Source: Bacillota bacterium
GTDB lineage: Bacteria; Bacillota; Limnochordia; Darwinibacteriales; JAAYFS01
Assembly (NCBI GenBank): GCA_012728115.1
Contig: JAAYFS010000006.1
Coordinates: 1-62,599 of the forward strand
Direction: 5' to 3'
DNA length: 62,599 nucleotides
Shown here: positions 10,943 through 46,580 of the stretch, piece after piece
How positions within the stretch are numbered: position 1 is the first letter of the stretch
Layout of the letters: each line of letters starts with the position of its first letter
The notes under the pieces: model-generated
Databases searched by the model: none
The model's input: the letters and a program-made list of their open reading frames with translations, nothing else
Told to the model about the DNA's origin: nothing
Made by a program: the position numbers and the translations under genes

Positions 10943-10961
10943 TAGGGCGAAAATAATAATA

Positions 10962-11172
10962 ACCTCTTCGTTAGGTGAGGCTCCTACAGAGGATGAGCTA
11001 CTGCCCAAAAACGTCGAGAGACGCCAATGGGTCAACAGATCTTATCGGATTAAGGTATGATCTAATGTAGCGGGCTTAATACCTTACTCTGTAGTGCTAA
11101 AGCTCAACAAGGGAGGCTTATATTGTTATCGCATTTTTGCGAGAACAAACCCCTCCCTATTGGAGGGGTTTT
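10962..11172 (+). promoter_or_regulatory. M-box (ykoK) magnesium riboswitch with expression platform
   Basis: The aptamer shows the conserved M-box strings in order: CGTTAGGTGAGGCTCCTA, then GCTACTGCCCAAAAA, GACGCCAATGGGTCAACAG, and AGTGCTAAAGCTC near 11090-11105. In this class Mg2+ compacts the aptamer and favours the terminator at 11148-11172. The GGGAGG at 11111-11116 can pair with the left terminator arm (CCCTCC) to form an antiterminator when Mg2+ is low. Position before mgtE matches the known regulon. Confidence 0.93.
11148..11172 (+). terminator. Intrinsic terminator of the M-box expression platform
   Basis: AACCCCTCC and GGAGGGGTT pair perfectly around a five-base loop, followed by a short T-run. 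It competes with the antiterminator pairing of GGGAGG at 11111-11116. Confidence 0.85.
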
Positions 11173-38398: not shown

Positions 38399-39595
38399 CT
38401 ATTTTACATATCCAAGTAATACACTAATAGCAGCAACTCCAATTGCGATATAGGTAGTGCTCTTGGCAGATTTTATCTCCTTTTCCATATTGGTTTTATA
38501 AGAAGCAAAATCTTCCTCGAGAGTTTTTAGTTGTCGTTCCAATCTTTGCTCTCGTAACAAGTTGGCATTTAATTGCGCATAGATTTCGTCAGTTACAGTT
38601 TTTGTCAGTAACGCTAACTCATCTTCGGATAAGCCTACTTGTTGCTCTAACGAATCTAAACGTTTGTTTATCTCTGAAGCTAAGGCTTCTCTATTCTGTC
38701 CTTCTCTAGTAATTCGGATCGCCAAGTTCTGCATATCTTTTTCCATCTCTTGATTTCTAGTAGTGATGGAGTTGATTTGCCCAGTCAATTTCTCGATGTC
38801 CTTGACGAATTGACCGTCAGTACGCCCGACTAAATCTACCAAACTGTCCAGTGATTCTTCAAGAGTTTTTAATTGCTGTTTTAATTCATCTAGATCTTTT
38901 CTTAACGTACTATCATCAGCTTGCATAGCAACAAAGACTGCGGCTTTTTCGCTCGCCCAATTTTCAAGTTCGCTTAAGGATACTCCTTGTTCCAATAAAA
39001 TAGATTCGAGAGCAATTAAGGCGTTTTCTACATCCGAGAGGGACTCTTTAAGAGTTGCAATTGCTTCAATTTGCTCAGCTAATGAAATGGCATGTTGTTC
39101 AATTGTTTCATTTTGCTTCTTAATCTCATTATAGATATCTGCTTTGATTTTTTCCACTTCTTCTTGCAAATCGGTTTGCGATGCTACCACTCTGCTTACC
39201 CTATCCTCGGTGATTTGGAGCATAACTTGTGTATTTGCTAATTGTTCTTCTACTGCATCTTTTTGAGCATACCATTGAACAAGTTCTTCCCGAAATTCGA
39301 TCGTTAACTCCTGTAAAAGCTCTAGATCATCGATCGAACTGCGAACTCGCCCAGCTTCGATTTCATCAAGAATTCGGGCAATCGTTATCGCTAACGTATA
39401 ACGATCAACAGCCTTGGTTCCTTGAAAAGATCCGTCTTCAAACACAGTTAAGTAACCTTTGTTCACTAACGATACCACCGCTTGGTATGCCCAGTGGTCA
39501 GGAGGTACGTCTTTAACGTTCGCACTTACTGGTACAATACCAACCATTCCCATCACCATCGTAACTACAAGAACCCAAATGCCTAGTTTTTTCAC
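38399..39595 (-). CDS. SLH-domain coiled-coil protein with C-terminal membrane helix (Omp-alpha-like tether)
   Basis: 398 residues. Signal peptide (KKLGIWVLVVTMVMGMVGIVPVSA), one SLH domain (about 27-75: VPPDHWAYQAVVSLVNKGYL...TKAVDRYTLAITIARIL), a very long heptad-rich coiled coil (about 85-370) and a single hydrophobic C-terminal helix (STTYIAIGVAAISVLLGYVK). This is the architecture of Omp-alpha, which spans the Thermotoga periplasm from peptidoglycan-bound SLH to the outer membrane. The GTG at 39595 is preferred as GGAGG lies eight bases upstream. It is last in the exbB-exbD-tonB operon. An inner-membrane-anchored spacer is the alternative. The outer-membrane assignment is inference. Confidence 0.75.
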   Translation of the reverse strand: MKKLGIWVLVVTMVMGMVGIVPVSANVKDVPPDHWAYQAVVSLVNKGYLTVFEDGSFQGTKAVDRYTLAITIARILDEIEAGRVRSSIDDLELLQELTIEFREELVQWYAQKDAVEEQLANTQVMLQITEDRVSRVVASQTDLQEEVEKIKADIYNEIKKQNETIEQHAISLAEQIEAIATLKESLSDVENALIALESILLEQGVSLSELENWASEKAAVFVAMQADDSTLRKDLDELKQQLKTLEESLDSLVDLVGRTDGQFVKDIEKLTGQINSITTRNQEMEKDMQNLAIRITREGQNREALASEINKRLDSLEQQVGLSEDELALLTKTVTDEIYAQLNANLLREQRLERQLKTLEEDFASYKTNMEKEIKSAKSTTYIAIGVAAISVLLGYVK

Positions 39596-39612
39596 AATAC
39601 TAACCTCCACCC

Positions 39613-41649
39613 TTAAGGTTTTACAACTATCTCACGCTCGATCACTTGATAGTTCGTGATCTCGCCTGTTTCATCACGAATAACCAGATTTTCTAAACCT
39701 ATCAGTGTCTTACCTGGAGCTTTAGCTCTAAAATGAATAGTAACCAATGAGCCAAAGGCTAATGGCAAAGGTGTGCCTCCCCGTTCGCCACTGATATTAC
39801 TCACCCGTCCAGTATAGTTATCTACAGAGGATACGGACCATGGTAAAAATACAGGAGGATTGGTAGTTTCATCAACAAAGAGCGAACCTCTACTGATATC
39901 TAACTTTCGTCCGACTATTTCCACTACCTCTGGGTCATAGACTAGATCAAGACTTGCACTCTGAAAATCAACAATATTGGTTGCTAATACGGTTACCGAA
40001 AAATGGTCTCCTGCTTTTATATCGCCACCATGAACCACTCTTGGTTCCTCAACAATAATCTTTGGTTGCAAACCTGGGATGAATATCCAATTGTTTGTAA
40101 CTTCGCGTCCAACACTGGAGTTTAGATACAGTGAATAGTACAGATTTCCAGATACACCTGTTGGCTCCAAACGCCAATTTACTCTCACTTCTTCACCAGG
40201 TCGGATGGTACCAGGATACTTGGTTGCCCGTTCACCTGGAGCTAGCTTCAATCCAAAAGGACAATAGATAGTTAGACCCACGCGATAAGCATCGCTATCG
40301 CCCACATTTCTTATAATTGCGGTAGCTTCAAACGGTACAGGTGTTAGACGTTCTGATTGAATGGTCAAATGAGTAGTACCGACAAAGTCGAGCTGAAGCT
40401 TGGCGGGGCGAATAATTTCGATATCCCTTTGCACACTGTTTGACTCACTATTAATCGCATCAACCGTTACTTTGTAAGTAACTTTTCCACTCACTTTACC
40501 AGTCGGAATCACCATCCAGCTAGTTTGGATAGTCTCGCCAACCTGCAAATTACCTAACCTTCGTTCGTTTTGACCATCTGCTAACTGCAAACCTTCTGGC
40601 AGATCCAGGGTTGCAACTACGTCAAGAGCCTCACCTTTTCCAGTGTTTTGGACATAAGCCACTAGCGTAAAGCTTTGCTGTGAAAGCTCGTCAGCAATCA
40701 CTTGTGCAGGCGAGGTTACTCCTACCGAAATCTCCCCAGGGGCGATTGTAACTCCACCTAAACCGTAATAAGCAACGTAACTACGACTCTCCCCTGCTCT
40801 TAACGGAACAGGATCCCAAAAAAGAGCAATCGCACTATCTAATTCGAATTCACCTTTTCGAGTAAAATCTCGTCCTGGCTGAAAATCAAAATTCCAAAGA
40901 TCATCTGCTAAACTACCCCAGTTGGTGAAGTACACACGATCAGGGATTGAAACCTGATCGCTTCGCAAAGTGCCTTGCGACATAACCTGAGGATCAGACA
41001 ACGAATCAAATGCCTGCCAAAACTCAGGCATATTATCACGATAAAAAACTGAATCTGTCAACAACGCCTGATCATTAACTCTGAAAGGAGCTCCATCGTT
41101 CTCACCAAGCATAGTATCAAGCATAATTCGCAAGCCTACCATGTGGGAAACATTATCGACGTTATGAAGTTCATACTCGATCCGAGCGGTATCTAATAAG
41201 CCAGTTGTACTGCTCCTGGCGAAACTTAATCTTTGTGTTACTTCAATCGGACCAGTTTTCCAGGTACTTATGATCGCTCCATCCTCAATGGTCGGTGCTT
41301 GGATCATTTCGCCGAACAAACCCTCGCGACCAGACCTACTATTGGTTTGACCCCCGAAGACCCAACTCTCGTTACCAATTCGAATGGTAGTATACGAAGT
41401 CCAAGGTTCATTACCGCCATAAATCAAATGTTTATTTTGGTCGGTATTCCGTTCTGGGTCACCACCTGTTGTCCCTACTGAGAATCTGCCAACATTAAAC
41501 TCCCCTGTATTTACTACGATGCGAATATATTCGTTAGCGATCTCTAATTTTGATTCAGAAGCATAGGCTGATCCGCTAGTAAAAAACAGCACCGTTATCA
41601 AGAGAAGGAATACCATTAAGTTTGTTGCTCGAACTTTGAAAGAAGCCAA
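39613..41649 (-). CDS. Secreted multidomain protein with C-terminal cohesin-like domain
   Basis: About 678 residues. After a signal peptide (NLMVFLLLITVLFFTSGSAYA) comes an unrecognised beta-rich N-terminal domain (about 35-305). Two repeat-like immunoglobulin-type (CARDB/NEW3-like) modules follow (around 310-530, marked by VAYVQNTGKGEALDVVATL and ATAIIRNVGDSDAYRVGL). The last about 140 residues have the cohesin pattern: AGDHFSVTVLATNIVDFQSASLDLVYDPEVVEIVG and GSLVTIHFRAKAPGKTLIGLENL. No catalytic motif is visible. The TTG start with AAGGAGG directly follows the tonB stop, so it is translationally coupled. A binding or scaffold role at the cell surface or periplasm is likely; the ligand is unknown. 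Confidence 0.75.
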   Translation of the reverse strand: MASFKVRATNLMVFLLLITVLFFTSGSAYASESKLEIANEYIRIVVNTGEFNVGRFSVGTTGGDPERNTDQNKHLIYGGNEPWTSYTTIRIGNESWVFGGQTNSRSGREGLFGEMIQAPTIEDGAIISTWKTGPIEVTQRLSFARSSTTGLLDTARIEYELHNVDNVSHMVGLRIMLDTMLGENDGAPFRVNDQALLTDSVFYRDNMPEFWQAFDSLSDPQVMSQGTLRSDQVSIPDRVYFTNWGSLADDLWNFDFQPGRDFTRKGEFELDSAIALFWDPVPLRAGESRSYVAYYGLGGVTIAPGEISVGVTSPAQVIADELSQQSFTLVAYVQNTGKGEALDVVATLDLPEGLQLADGQNERRLGNLQVGETIQTSWMVIPTGKVSGKVTYKVTVDAINSESNSVQRDIEIIRPAKLQLDFVGTTHLTIQSERLTPVPFEATAIIRNVGDSDAYRVGLTIYCPFGLKLAPGERATKYPGTIRPGEEVRVNWRLEPTGVSGNLYYSLYLNSSVGREVTNNWIFIPGLQPKIIVEEPRVVHGGDIKAGDHFSVTVLATNIVDFQSASLDLVYDPEVVEIVGRKLDISRGSLFVDETTNPPVFLPWSVSSVDNYTGRVSNISGERGGTPLPLAFGSLVTIHFRAKAPGKTLIGLENLVIRDETGEITNYQVIEREIVVKP

Positions 41650-41651
41650 GA

Positions 41652-42638
41652 CTATTCCTCCTTTATCGAAATTACCCATTCAGTTTCACCAAACAGTGGT
41701 TCACCAGCAACTTCTTGTCCAATTTCAAAAGGAATACCCATTACAAGTAAGTAGTCATGTGTCGCACTTTCAAATATATAATAATTGCTTTTAACTGAGA
41801 GCAACGCTTGCTGATCCAACCTTGTATCTCCAGAAGATTCCTTGATCTTAACGTCAAGTAATTCTCCCGAAGCTGATACATAGATTTCTAACCAAACTAC
41901 ACCCTCAGCGCCATCATCGTATGCCCTTTTTGGATAAACAGGTGCTCTACCGCCACCGAATAGACTACTTCCAGATGGAACTGGTGGTGGTGCAGGTGGT
42001 GCAACTGGTGCATCTCCTTCTCCGGAACCTTGTTGACCTGCTTCTTCATCAACACCCGCAGTATCTTCTGTGCCCGATCCACTAGAACCTTGATCCTCAA
42101 AGATCTCTTCTGGAAGCGATTCGACAACAATAGCCTCCTCTACTTCTATCTCAACTGGTTCTAATTCTTTCACTTCTTCAACCACAACAGTATGAGAGCT
42201 GGATTCACTTGTAAGCAATCCTTCACTTTCGATCGGAGTAGGTTCTAACTCCTTGATAACCTCTGGTTCTGGTTGCACAGGAACTTGTGCCTCTTGTTCT
42301 GGCTCAGTTCGTGGTCGAGGTAATGGGGTGACGCTTTCTTCCCGTGCTGGCTCGACAGCCTCAGAAACAGCTAAGTGTCTTGGTTGACCTGGATTTGGCT
42401 TGGGCTCGTTAACCCTCGGTGCCAAAGTTCGCGATAAAGGATCGCGATATGTAGAAGGCTCAAAGGTAGAAGGTCCTTCATAGTGCACAATCTGAATAAC
42501 CCCGCCTCCAGTACGACTGCTAGGCACATTCGAAATAAAAAACGAATTCCACAATGGATAGGTTAAAAATAGTACCAGATGTAATAAGAAGGACACAAAC
42601 AACCATGTGCTCAACGATTGTTCATCATTGTAATACAT
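41652..42638 (-). CDS. tonB: TonB energy-transducing protein
   Basis: 328 residues. One N-terminal membrane helix (STWLFVSFLLHLVLFLTYPLW) holds a Ser-x3-His pair at residues 16 and 20, exactly the spacing of the essential TonB helix motif. A long acidic/proline-rich periplasmic stretch (about 70-225) leads to a TonB C-terminal domain (PVYPKRAYDDGAEGVVWLEIYVSASGELLDVKI, SGDTRLDQQALLSVKSNYY) with an extra tail. TonB conveys proton-motive force from ExbB/ExbD to outer-membrane receptors. No such receptor is in the window. Confidence 0.92.
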   Translation of the reverse strand: MYYNDEQSLSTWLFVSFLLHLVLFLTYPLWNSFFISNVPSSRTGGGVIQIVHYEGPSTFEPSTYRDPLSRTLAPRVNEPKPNPGQPRHLAVSEAVEPAREESVTPLPRPRTEPEQEAQVPVQPEPEVIKELEPTPIESEGLLTSESSSHTVVVEEVKELEPVEIEVEEAIVVESLPEEIFEDQGSSGSGTEDTAGVDEEAGQQGSGEGDAPVAPPAPPPVPSGSSLFGGGRAPVYPKRAYDDGAEGVVWLEIYVSASGELLDVKIKESSGDTRLDQQALLSVKSNYYIFESATHDYLLVMGIPFEIGQEVAGEPLFGETEWVISIKEE

Positions 42639-42675
42639 TTAATCACCCTTTATTTTTGGGATTCAACCCTTCCTT

Positions 42676-43083
42676 CTATCTCACTGGTTCGGTTGTTCCT
42701 AAACCAAATTTCTCTACTCCGCCAGCACGAATATAATCCGCAGCTCTAATAATGGAGTTATAATCCGCATGTTTGTCGCCTTTGACAATAACAAAGGTAT
42801 TCGGATCCGTTTTGACAGCTTCGCGGACGATAGCTTGAATCTCTGGTCCAGTTACTACCTTACCTTCCAAGTAAAAAATCCCGTCTCTATCAACTACAAC
42901 CTCTAGTTGGATATTTTCTTGAGGATTACCTGTAACCGCTTCTGGTAGCTCCACTTCCATCCCCATACTAGATTGATAAAAATTAGCAAAAACCATGAAA
43001 AAAGTTACCAGAAAAAACATGATATCGATTAACGGCACGATATTTGGTTGTGGATTTCTTCGCCTTGAACGATAAAAGTTCAT
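42676..43083 (-). CDS. exbD: ExbD/TolR family biopolymer transporter
   Basis: 135 residues. One helix carries the essential Asp (NIVPLIDIMFFLVTFFMVFA, D20) followed by a periplasmic domain ending VEKFGLGTTEPVR. It forms the proton-conducting motor with ExbB. The start overlaps the exbB stop by one base. Confidence 0.94.
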   Translation of the reverse strand: MNFYRSRRRNPQPNIVPLIDIMFFLVTFFMVFANFYQSSMGMEVELPEAVTGNPQENIQLEVVVDRDGIFYLEGKVVTGPEIQAIVREAVKTDPNTFVIVKGDKHADYNSIIRAADYIRAGGVEKFGLGTTEPVR

Positions 43084-43697
43084 TAATAATCACCTCTTGA
43101 ATCTAATACCTCCAAAAGTTCATTACTCCTCTTGGTCATGTCTGCCGTAAATCGATCGATTAAACTGGTGAGATAAGTATAAATCACCATCGTAGGAATA
43201 GCAATAATAAGCCCAGTTGCAGTAGTAATTAAAGCTTCGGCAATACCTGCACTTAGCTCCACAGCAGTACCAAGTCCGTGCATGCCAGCAAGAACGTCAA
43301 AACTTTTAATGATACCAGTTACCGTACCCAAAATTCCTAATAGAGGGGCGATAACAGAGATCGCCTCTAGAATACTAAGCCAGCGTTCCATTTTAAAGAT
43401 CTCTTCTCTTCCTATTTCTTCCATTTTAGCTTTAATTTCTTCTTTATCACGATCATAATGAGCAATTCCTGATGCTAAAGTAGCAGCGACTGGCCCTCTT
43501 GTTTTCTTTGCTAATTGAACAGCTTCTAATACTTTTCCTTGTCCTAGGGCTAATCTAATTTCATCGATTAAATCCTCGGTATCTACCCGTGCCTTTAATA
43601 GATACCATAAACGTTCTAATCCGACAGCTAGCGCAACCACTGAACAAAAAATCAATGGATACATTACTGGGCCGCCTCGTACAATTAAGTCAAGCAT
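43083..43697 (-). CDS. exbB: ExbB/MotA/TolQ family proton channel
   Basis: 204 residues with three membrane helices. Family segments are MYPLIFCSVVALAVGLERLWYLL, LSILEAISVIAPLLGILGTVTGIIKSF and AEALITTATGLIIAIPTMVIYTYL (the conserved proton-channel threonines). First gene of exbB-exbD-tonB-cohesin-tether; its ATG has a GGAGGGG SD. TolQ is the alternative, but the following tonB with a TonB C-domain favours ExbB. Confidence 0.93.
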   Translation of the reverse strand: MLDLIVRGGPVMYPLIFCSVVALAVGLERLWYLLKARVDTEDLIDEIRLALGQGKVLEAVQLAKKTRGPVAATLASGIAHYDRDKEEIKAKMEEIGREEIFKMERWLSILEAISVIAPLLGILGTVTGIIKSFDVLAGMHGLGTAVELSAGIAEALITTATGLIIAIPTMVIYTYLTSLIDRFTADMTKRSNELLEVLDSRGDY

Positions 43698-43846: not shown

Positions 43847-44401
43847 TTAACTTGCCTTTTTAATTCGATCATTGCGGCGAAGAAATTCATCTTTTAGAAT
43901 GCGCATCAACAAGATTTCCCGAAACCCTTCATTGTTTTCGGTTGAGCGACGAAGTCTACCTTCTTTTTTAAAGCCTACCTTTTCGTAACATCTAATTGCT
44001 CGATGATTATCGGCATATACCCTAAGATAGACACGAGAAAGATTAAGGTTTAAAAAGGCGAATGCCAATAGGGTTCTAACCGAATCGGTTCCATAACCCT
44101 TATCCCAAAGCACCTTTTTGCCGATCCTAATCCGTAACTCGGCATCTCCGCTTCGCCAAGTAATATGATCCAGTTCGATATCGCCAATCAATTCTTTATT
44201 CAATTCGATTGCAAATCTTTCTTGATAGCGATTACTCTTACTTCTTTTTAGCCATTGGTGACATTCGCTCAATGTTAGAGGATAATCACCCTCGCTATAT
44301 GAATTGATTTCTGAATCATTTGACCAGGCGACAAGATCCTCAAAATCAGATTCTTGGATTGGCCGTAGGCTAATTTTCTCCCCTTTTAGTTTCATGTTCA
44401 A
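43847..44401 (-). CDS. GNAT family N-acetyltransferase (RimJ/RimL-like)
   Basis: 184 residues. GEKISLRPIQESDFEDLVAW opens a GNAT fold of the RimJ/RimL/SpeG type; acetyl-CoA binding lies around KVLWDKGYGTDSVRTLLAFAF, and LRVYADNHRAIRCYEKVGFKKEG is the classical C-terminal motif. It transfers an acetyl group to an amine (protein N-terminus, polyamine or antibiotic cannot be told apart). The start is TTG with AAGGAG six bases upstream. It is alone between two terminators. Confidence 0.85.
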   Translation of the reverse strand: MNMKLKGEKISLRPIQESDFEDLVAWSNDSEINSYSEGDYPLTLSECHQWLKRSKSNRYQERFAIELNKELIGDIELDHITWRSGDAELRIRIGKKVLWDKGYGTDSVRTLLAFAFLNLNLSRVYLRVYADNHRAIRCYEKVGFKKEGRLRRSTENNEGFREILLMRILKDEFLRRNDRIKKAS

Positions 44402-44519
44402 TTAGCACTCCTTCTGAAGATTGGATTACGATCCTGTGCTACTCGATAAGGGAAATATACCACAAACACTATGTAGAGATTTCTCGCTTTCTTCTCATTA
44501 ACCTTTAAGTAATACTAAC

Positions 44520-45362
44520 CTATATTCCTAGAATATGGCTCTGTTTTAATAGTTGCTCCGCCCATTCATCAGGGATGGTCCATTTCCCTATCATAATCGT
44601 ATCCTTACCAGAAGGACCATGGCAATCCGAACCACCTGTTGGAAGTAAATTTAGCTCGCTAGCGAGGTTAGAATAAAAGGAAGTTCTTTCCTCGCTATGT
44701 TCAGGGTGAATTACCTCGATTCCTTTTAGTCCAAAACTTTGAAACAAACGGATGCTGGCAATTTCCTCTTCTAAAGATCTAAATCCGATCGCCCCAGGAT
44801 GAGCTAGCACGGCTAAACCACCTGCAGAGTAAATTAGTTTAATCGCTTTCTCCACAGTAAGTTTAAAGCGTTCAATATATGCTGGTTGCCCCTTGTTAAG
44901 AAATTTCTCAAAAGCCTCTTGTCTCGTTTTCACATACCCTCTCGCCATCATCACATTAGCAAAATGTAATCTCCCTATATTCTCGCCTTTTGCCTCCGCA
45001 ACAATTTCTGTTAGATCGATCTCCATTCCTAGTTCGTTTAACCTTTCAACCATTTTCTGGGCGCGATAAAATCTTGCATCACGCATTTTGGCGAGCTGAT
45101 TTTGCAACTTCTGATCCTGGTAATCAAATCCGTAACCCAAAATATGGATATCATAATGTTCGAAATACGCCCCTAGTTCAATGCCTGAGATAATGGAAAT
45201 ACCATGCGGAGCACCCTTGAGTGCCAAAGCGATTCCCTCAGTAGAATCATGATCGGTGATCGAAATATACGAAAGGCCTAGTCTGTAAGCTATTTCCCCA
45301 ATCCTTTTAGGCTCCCATTTACCATCGGAAGCGGTGGTATGAATATGCAAATCCGAAGACAT
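44520..45362 (-). CDS. PHP domain phosphoesterase
   Basis: 280 residues. The metal site is assembled from DLHIHTTASDG, SITDHDSTEG, the ISGIELGA block, VLAHPGAIG and PTGGSDCHGPS. This set matches the YciV/RnaAM type of PHP phosphoesterase, which acts on 3',5'-nucleoside bisphosphates or short 5' RNA ends. Exact substrate not established. It lies just after sigF (24 bases) and may be cotranscribed with the spoIIA operon. Confidence 0.88.
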   Translation of the reverse strand: MSSDLHIHTTASDGKWEPKRIGEIAYRLGLSYISITDHDSTEGIALALKGAPHGISIISGIELGAYFEHYDIHILGYGFDYQDQKLQNQLAKMRDARFYRAQKMVERLNELGMEIDLTEIVAEAKGENIGRLHFANVMMARGYVKTRQEAFEKFLNKGQPAYIERFKLTVEKAIKLIYSAGGLAVLAHPGAIGFRSLEEEIASIRLFQSFGLKGIEVIHPEHSEERTSFYSNLASELNLLPTGGSDCHGPSGKDTIMIGKWTIPDEWAEQLLKQSHILGI

Positions 45363-45386
45363 TAATCTACTCCTAACTAAGAATAA

Positions 45387-46142
45387 TTAATAATACTTGC
45401 GCATTTCAAGCATAATCCGCTTTTCAATTCTTGATACCTGCGCCTGTGATATACCGAGAATCTTCGCCACTTCTGTTTGGCTTTTCTCGGCAAAATAGCG
45501 TAGCATCAGAAATTTTTGATCCTCTGGTTCTAGCTTTTCCATCATGCGCTTGATTATGATAGTGGTATCTTCGCCTGGATCGGCTTGAGTTGCGGCAATC
45601 TGATCTTCTAGCAATAATGGATCTCCATCATTCTCATGGATAATCTGGTGCAATGAGTGCACTGGTTTAATGGCATCTAAAGCGACCACTATATCTTCTC
45701 GATCCACACCTAAGTGTTCTGCAACTTCCTGAACGGTTGGTGTTCGACCCAAATCAAAAGTTAACTGCTCTTGAATTTGGATAGCCTTTTGTGCAAGTTC
45801 TTTTAAAGAACGAGAAACCCTTATGGTAGATGATTCACGTATGTAACGCTTAATCTCCCCGACAATCTTAGGAACGGCATAAGTAGAAAAACGCACGTTA
45901 TAAGAAAGATCAAAACCATCGATAGCCTTCATAAGCCCGATCGAGCCGATCTGAAACAAGTCATCGCTGTCAAAGCCTCGATGCTGGAATCTTTTCACTA
46001 CGCTAGCTACTAAGCGCAAATTATTTTCGATCAAGATATTCCTGGCTTCTAGATCGCCTTGTTGTGAACGACGTATCAAACATTTAATCTCAGCATCAGA
46101 CAATCTTTTGTTAGGTAGGACTTTGATATAATCGTAATCCAT
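45387..46142 (-). CDS. sigF: RNA polymerase sporulation sigma factor SigF
   Basis: 251 residues. Region 2 has ARNILIENNLRLVASVVKRFQHRG and DLFQIGSIGLMKAIDGFDLSYNVRFSTYAVPKIVGEIKRYIRES, region 3 RTPTVQEVAEHLGV, and region 4 KSQTEVAKILGISQAQVSRIEK. With the preceding anti-sigma gene this is SigF, the first forespore-specific sigma factor, rather than SigG. Starts 9 bases after spoIIAB. Confidence 0.95.
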   Translation of the reverse strand: MDYDYIKVLPNKRLSDAEIKCLIRRSQQGDLEARNILIENNLRLVASVVKRFQHRGFDSDDLFQIGSIGLMKAIDGFDLSYNVRFSTYAVPKIVGEIKRYIRESSTIRVSRSLKELAQKAIQIQEQLTFDLGRTPTVQEVAEHLGVDREDIVVALDAIKPVHSLHQIIHENDGDPLLLEDQIAATQADPGEDTTIIIKRMMEKLEPEDQKFLMLRYFAEKSQTEVAKILGISQAQVSRIEKRIMLEMRKYY

Positions 46143-46151
46143 TTAGATCAC

Positions 46152-46580
46152 CTAATACATAGCAGTCTTTGGCGTTTTTTCCATTATTACCTTTGTTCCC
46201 TTTTCTTTTTCAGAAATGATTTCAACTTTGTCCATACATTCCTTCATCCAGAGAATTCCGCTACCAAGATGATCCATTTTCGTCTCTGGTTCCGATTCTT
46301 CATCTTCATCAGGAGAAAACCCCTTGCCAAAGTCTTCGATAATTATCGTCAGCGTTTTGCCATCATGCGATGCTTCAACAATAATTAGTTCAGGTTCATT
46401 TTGGTACCCGTGAACTATTGAGTTAGTAACCGCTTCATCAACTGAGTCTTTGATATCTTCAATTTCTTCCAGAGTGAATTCTAGTTGCGAAGCAAAAACC
46501 GCCACTGTCGTTCTGGCAAATCTGGCATTTTCAGATAGGCTTGGAAACTCGATTCTCATCCAGTTTTTTCTATCTTCCAC
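46152..46580 (-). CDS. spoIIAB: Anti-sigma-F factor SpoIIAB
   Basis: 142 residues, a GHKL kinase: EIEDIKDSVDEAVTNSIVHGY (N-box) and IIIEDFGKGFSPDED and GSGILWMKECMD (G-boxes). It holds SigF inactive and phosphorylates SpoIIAA. GTG start inside the 3' end of spoIIAA (11-base overlap), preceded by GGGAGGG. Confidence 0.95.
   Translation of the reverse strand: MEDRKNWMRIEFPSLSENARFARTTVAVFASQLEFTLEEIEDIKDSVDEAVTNSIVHGYQNEPELIIVEASHDGKTLTIIIEDFGKGFSPDEDEESEPETKMDHLGSGILWMKECMDKVEIISEKEKGTKVIMEKTPKTAMY

Follow-up and report, generated by a model that had tools for sequence, protein, structure and literature searches.

A Ton-type motor operon with a cohesin protein and an SLH coiled-coil protein looks like a Tol-Pal stand-in in two classes of two-membraned Bacillota

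The window analysed in this work, i.e., the whole stretch of 62,599 nucleotides of DNA from a bacterium of the Limnochordia (Bacillota), harbors a compact operon in which exbB, exbD and tonB are joined to the genes for two further proteins, named here COH and SLHcc. With a probability that we place at about 0.55, these genes encode a proton-driven trans-envelope system acting on an outer-membrane tether and not on nutrient receptors, and typical of Limnochordia and Halanaerobiales. A few directed searches of the open-access literature retrieved no earlier description of the five-gene module; one could exist in a subscription paper.

Results

Gene organization and transcription unit

The five ORFs were confirmed on the minus strand, with almost no gaps between them, in the order exbB, exbD, tonB, COH and SLHcc, and both their positions and their family matches agree with the five packed genes described in the initial annotation, which had been made from the sequence alone. 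The features of the locus are the following (positions are those of the window):

43838-43811, minus strand: intrinsic terminator separating exbB from the upstream sigF-PHP-GNAT genes (T run; stem-loop of -18.1 kcal/mol, z -6.2)
43083-43697, minus strand: exbB, ExbB/TolQ-type motor subunit, 204 aa (PF01618, 3.6e-30)
42676-43083, minus strand: exbD, ExbD/TolR-type subunit with the proton-carrying Asp, 135 aa (PF02472, 9.4e-27)
41652-42638, minus strand: tonB, 328 aa (PF03544, 1.9e-11; TIGR01352, 2.4e-12)
39613-41679, minus strand: COH, sugar-fold/Ig/cohesin protein, 688 aa (NEW3, 1.8e-8; Cohesin, 1.5e-6)
38399-39610, minus strand: SLHcc, SLH/coiled-coil/C-terminal-helix protein, 403 aa (SLH-bearing NCBIfam model, 1.1e-11)
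38361-38324, minus strand: intrinsic terminator after SLHcc (stem-loop -23.5 kcal/mol, z -6.9, then a T run)

The overlaps are of 1 bp between exbB and exbD and of 28 bp between tonB and COH, and the gaps are of 37 bp between exbD and tonB and of 2 bp between COH and SLHcc. Upstream of the five genes the window carries spoIIAB-sigF-PHP-GNAT and downstream spoVAC-AD-AE. The terminators at the two ends of the unit have stems of 16-18 bp; the presence of strong terminators on both sides implies that the five genes form their own transcription unit, outside the flanking sigF and spoVA operons. A promoter scan revealed no excess over shuffled sequences. At a distance from the operon (10960-11122, plus strand), the window also contains an M-box magnesium riboswitch (Rfam RF00380, 131 bits).

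Distribution of the module and its neighbours

The order exbB-exbD-tonB-COH-SLHcc was retrieved in 70 out of 70 distinct loci from Limnochordia and Halanaerobiales/Hydrogenispora, counted after the removal of duplicates and with enough flanking sequence to judge. This excludes chance and settles in the affirmative the question, raised in the initial annotation, of whether the order is conserved in relatives; the scattering of the last two genes away from tonB, which would have told against the initial annotation, did not occur, and COH and SLHcc are fixed partners of tonB at every one of these loci. Within the class Limnochordia, 70 of 73 genomes, from 39 of 42 genera, contain COH; in each of the three genomes lacking it, the contig with the core-type exbB stops within the operon. 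The module is usually single-copy across the class. When named genomes were scanned, the module also turned up in Hydrogenispora and, within Halanaerobiales, in Halanaerobacter jeridensis, Orenia metallireducens, Halonatronum saccharophilum and Candidatus Frackibacter.

The genes flanking the module vary between lineages. Limnochordia have sigF and GNAT there, Halobacteroidaceae have PHP together with a cell-wall hydrolase (in Halanaerobacter the hydrolase gene, PF07486, lies just downstream), and other genes occupy these places elsewhere, so that the module itself is the conserved unit. Across the class, spoIIAB-sigF-(PHP)-GNAT is located directly before exbB (43847-46580 in the window). GNAT is almost always present in the class loci; in Halanaerobiales it is unlinked to the module, and it is PHP that is linked.

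It might be supposed that the spoIIAB-sigF-(PHP)-GNAT linkage itself holds the key to the module, given that its adjacency to exbB extends across the class. We assign a very low probability to this reading, since the module of Halanaerobiales lies away from sigF, with no adjacency to it, and since in the window terminators part the module from GNAT and spoVA. The sigF/spoVA link is limited to a part of the range of the module and is interrupted by terminators, and a co-transcription with the sporulation genes is disfavoured on the same two grounds.

Outer-membrane genes in the host and their tie to COH

The suggestion that the host is a diderm was borne out by the rest of its genome, and the lack of outer-membrane biogenesis genes, which would have told against it, was not observed. 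Indeed, bamA lies in a region (contig C45, 4000-23900) that also codes for OmpH and LptF/G, for proteins resembling LpxB and PorV, for a weak match to LptD and for a large SLH protein of the OmpM type. BamA was found in 30 of the 31 genomes searched, that is, in this genome and in all the relatives but one. The coexistence of an outer membrane with sporulation genes had been presented as a paradox; diderm spore-formers have already been described, however, such as Limnochorda pilosa (cited in PMC11448272) and Halothermothrix orenii (PMC2626281), and sporulation in a diderm is therefore no contradiction.

A sample of 199 genomes of the phylum contained full-length COH in 45 and BamA in 49. BamA is present in all the 45 genomes with full-length COH, and full-length COH is missing from each of the 150 that are without BamA (Fisher p 2e-40, uncorrected for shared ancestry); four BamA-positive genomes of the sample are without COH. 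As full-length COH was absent from this sample wherever BamA was absent, the module bears on the loss of the outer membrane in Bacillota.

LpxC is absent from all the 37 genomes of the order of the window, as well as from family f12, and present in nearly all the other members of the class. With BamA, LptF/G, OmpH and the LpxB-like and weak LptD-like genes still there in the genome of the window, canonical lipid A may have been lost in this order and the outer membrane kept. The module is kept in this LpxC-less order and in the LpxC-bearing families alike.

The motor genes and the receptors

The best NCBIfam models for exbB were tolQ (2.7e-27) and exbB (1.5e-20), both under the equivalog cut-offs, and more generally tolQ and tolR are the top models for the motor proteins, with scores far under those cut-offs. 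The ExbB tree places the core copies in a single group with moderate support (72/93), apart from the receptor-linked exbB of the same class, and the receptor-linked copies of Limnochordia form a separate clade (98/96). TonB comprises an N-terminal helix with Ser16-x3-His20, a long Pro/Glu-rich linker and a C-terminal TonB domain (232-284), which is closer to TonB than to TolA (TonB_C 1.9e-11 vs tolA 5e-5); it has been reported that proline-rich TolA is structurally indistinguishable from TonB (PMC12204202). The Ser-x3-His pair is present in 71 of the 87 homologues scanned, the exceptions being mostly truncated or chimeric copies; in the Hydrogenispora-like group the His is retained and the Ser lost. 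The Asp of ExbD occurs in 80 of 80 copies (72 by motif, and eight reading MVD, MID or MD on inspection). Thus, these homologues of ExbB, ExbD and TonB carry the conserved motor residues of a Ton system, in line with the functional-looking motor already recognized in the initial annotation. The receptor-linked TonB proteins of the class, at the three loci considered, are 489-592 aa long, and the core TonB of the order of the window about 320-360 aa.

The genome of the window yielded neither the receptor barrel (PF00593) nor the plug (PF07715) in a search for TonB-dependent receptors, a search that the initial annotation had proposed without foreseeing that the system might be independent of them. 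The plug was found in 9 of the 73 class genomes and is absent in the other 64, the core exbB being present in nearly all. Six out of the seven Limnochordia receptor loci examined have their own exbB-exbD adjacent, and none was detected beside the seventh. Among the four receptor loci of Halanaerobiales and Hydrogenispora, exbB-exbD-tonB accompanies one and tonB only the other three; a separate exbB-exbD adjoins the Halanaerobacter receptor. No receptor gene lies inside the five-gene operon at any of the 70 loci. A receptor-driven Ton uptake as the main function was thus rejected, on the grounds that the plug occurs in 9 of 73 genomes and that most receptors have their own exbB, and the gene content indicates a five-gene system working without Ton receptors and not an ordinary Ton uptake system. 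A similar case was met in the 2009 genome paper of Halothermothrix orenii, in which ExbB/ExbD/TonB without detectable receptors were left unexplained as a puzzle (PMC2626281).

A related possibility is that of an uptake or export system using an outer-membrane receptor that is not of the plug/barrel type known today, e.g., an OmpM-like or other barrel, COH and SLHcc being accessory proteins of the periplasm. The TonB-like C-terminal domain would fit it, as would the additional barrel candidates in the outer-membrane gene region, such as the PorV-like protein. It appears unlikely to us, however, because the module is universal and usually single-copy across the entire class, no locus has a receptor gene in the operon, and the true receptors of the class are mostly provided with their own exbB.

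The COH protein

COH begins with a signal peptide and a galactose-mutarotase-like supersandwich (about 42-310). These are followed by a NEW3 module (336-407), another Ig-like module (about 428-534) and, at the C-terminus, a type-II-like cohesin (555-682) akin to structurally solved type II cohesins (best 4.4e-12). Its AlphaFold2 model has a mean pLDDT of 87, and that of the N-terminal domain alone a pTM of 0.87. With the entire model, a fold search retrieved nothing beyond generic strings of Ig-like domains, e.g., integrins; the N-terminal model matched GH94 phosphorylases, mutarotases and the periplasmic domain of YidC (best PDB match 1.1e-7, TM about 0.5-0.6). This domain is the most conserved part of the protein, with a mean column identity of 69% vs 45% for the whole. 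Galactose-mutarotase-like supersandwiches are often sugar binders, and on the basis of the modelled fold the domain might perhaps bind an envelope glycan. The relatives of the N-terminal half of COH in BamA-less Bacillota (four loci) are large secreted RHS-repeat or SLH surface proteins; they were considered as copies of the module and discarded as such.

The initial annotation had left a choice between an energised envelope-linking system and a surface scaffold, and had proposed a search for dockerins able to dock to the cohesin. The first of the two is supported, with the last two genes as its fixed partners. The second, a cellulosome-like surface scaffold energised by the Ton motor, has in its favour a genuine cohesin fold; nevertheless, no dockerin was found in the genome of the window and the 73 class genomes gave one marginal partial match, and each protein carries one cohesin only. 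The virtual absence of dockerins means that the cohesin of COH is no cellulosome part, and the idea, which we consider extremely improbable, was rejected.

The SLHcc protein

After its signal peptide, SLHcc has a single SLH module (about 33-75) and then a coiled coil of about 270 residues; at the C-terminus comes a hydrophobic helix, which only a very short tail follows. The SLH module of the window scores 16.1 bits with the Pfam model, whose cut-off is 20.8, and 26 of 32 homologues match SLH. The heptad power is 3.35 vs 1.00 +/- 0.32 in shuffled sequences, none of which (0/1000) was as high. The helix is present in 77 of 82 homologues; in 71 of these 77 it is preceded by Lys/Arg and followed by almost none, which is the wrong orientation for an inner-membrane tail. 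The charge pattern, together with analogy, is suggestive of a helix sitting in the outer membrane; the inner membrane could be an alternative site. The protein has the N-terminal SLH module, the long coiled coil and the C-terminal hydrophobic helix of Omp-alpha-type proteins, and it ends in this single helix, with no OmpM-type C-terminal beta-barrel.

The distance from the SLH module to the end of the protein varies from 179 to 1389 residues between lineages, which is odd for a tether spanning a fixed gap, and the lengths of TonB and SLHcc, compared as a possible gap ruler, are weakly correlated (rho 0.29). The calculated span of the 273-residue coil is about 40 nm at 0.1485 nm per residue, and the TonB linker of about 195 residues could have an equal reach. 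In one lineage, a second SLHcc-like SLH protein is encoded directly upstream of exbB (locus L163, 3986-4678), so that the module is able to carry two tether-like genes.

If SLHcc were placed in the inner membrane, the module might be a motor for other surface or wall mechanics, such as gliding-like movement or the control of peptidoglycan remodelling. ExbB/ExbD-type motors power gliding in other phyla, the sugar-fold domain of COH could bind glycan, and the hydrolase gene downstream of the Halanaerobacter module points in the same direction. The Lys/Arg pattern around the helix (71/77) and the strict tie of COH to BamA argue against this idea, and we regard it as rather improbable.

Discussion

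The action of this well-documented gene module on an outer-membrane tether can be inferred from its sequences as follows. The conserved motor residues suggest that an inner-membrane ExbB-ExbD complex would harvest the proton gradient and move TonB, which would cross the periplasm and, judging from the strict gene linkage, engage the secreted COH. COH, in turn, might bind SLHcc and perhaps also, by means of the sugar-fold domain, a glycan of the envelope, while SLHcc, whose anatomy matches that of Omp-alpha, would grip the peptidoglycan by the SLH module and the outer membrane by the C-terminal helix. The force exerted on COH might then load, release or relocate the tether, so that, for example, the outer membrane would be drawn in with the wall at division. 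More specifically, and to this we give somewhat less than an even chance, the module might be an independently built equivalent of Tol-Pal, in which a TonB-type transducer sets an Omp-alpha/SLH tether in motion by way of a sugar-fold/cohesin adaptor, as would be needed for outer-membrane constriction and stability. If this is true, no other motor-driven tether system would have been known before from diderm Terrabacteria.

The importance of such a system lies in the question of how the outer membrane is pulled in at division, and kept attached, in diderm Terrabacteria that possess no Pal and no TolB. The module offers a concrete and testable candidate, which is universal and tied to BamA in the sampled genomes and is available in cultured species (Halanaerobacter, Orenia, Halonatronum).

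Comparison with known systems

The module shares with Ton systems its ExbB, ExbD and TonB proteins, the conserved Ser/His and Asp residues included; it differs from them in being without a receptor in most genomes and in having two unrelated fixed partners, and true receptor-linked Ton clusters occur in the same class at other loci. Among diderm Firmicutes, Ton systems have been reported from Negativicutes alone, and further tethering systems are considered still to be found (PMC12204202). With cellulosomal type II cohesins it has in common the module at the end of COH; the differences are the lack of dockerins and the occurrence of one cohesin on a periplasm-directed protein.

As for the tethers, SLHcc resembles Omp-alpha (OmpA1) of Thermotoga maritima, a protein of 45.3 kDa with a coil of 316 residues and about 20 hydrophobic C-terminal residues (PMC3387000), in having SLH at the N-terminus, then a long coiled coil, and a hydrophobic stretch at the C-terminus. 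OmpM, in contrast, ends in a beta-barrel, which SLHcc does not have, and neither Omp-alpha nor OmpM has a known tie to a motor. A separate OmpM-like SLH protein is encoded near bamA in the genome of the window, so that tethering may not depend on SLHcc. PorE of Bacteroidota is another proposed lineage-specific stand-in for Tol-Pal (PMC12204202); it is, however, one lipoprotein that combines CpoB-, TolB- and Pal-like parts, and it shares no component with COH or SLHcc.

The closest parallel, overlooked in the initial annotation, is with tolQ-tolR-tolA-tolB-pal, whose order the module follows role by role: motor, motor, transducer, secreted periplasmic protein and wall-binding outer-membrane tether. 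The two share the motor superfamily, the single compact operon and the lack of a receptor; the likeness in gene order may also be a coincidence. Tol-Pal has been reported from Gracilicutes only (PMC12204202), and diderm Firmicutes have been reported to be without pal and tolB (PMC8871954). No TolB beta-propeller was found in the operon, COH being a chain of supersandwich, Ig-like modules and cohesin, and no Pal in the genome of the window, whose sole PF00691 (OmpA-family) protein is MotB beside MotA. SLHcc, with its SLH and C-terminal helix, likewise differs from Pal, an OmpA-domain lipoprotein, and the transducer has a TonB-type C-terminus. Lacking TolB and Pal, the module is no member of Tol-Pal; by analogy, it may nonetheless follow a Tol-Pal logic with unrelated end components.
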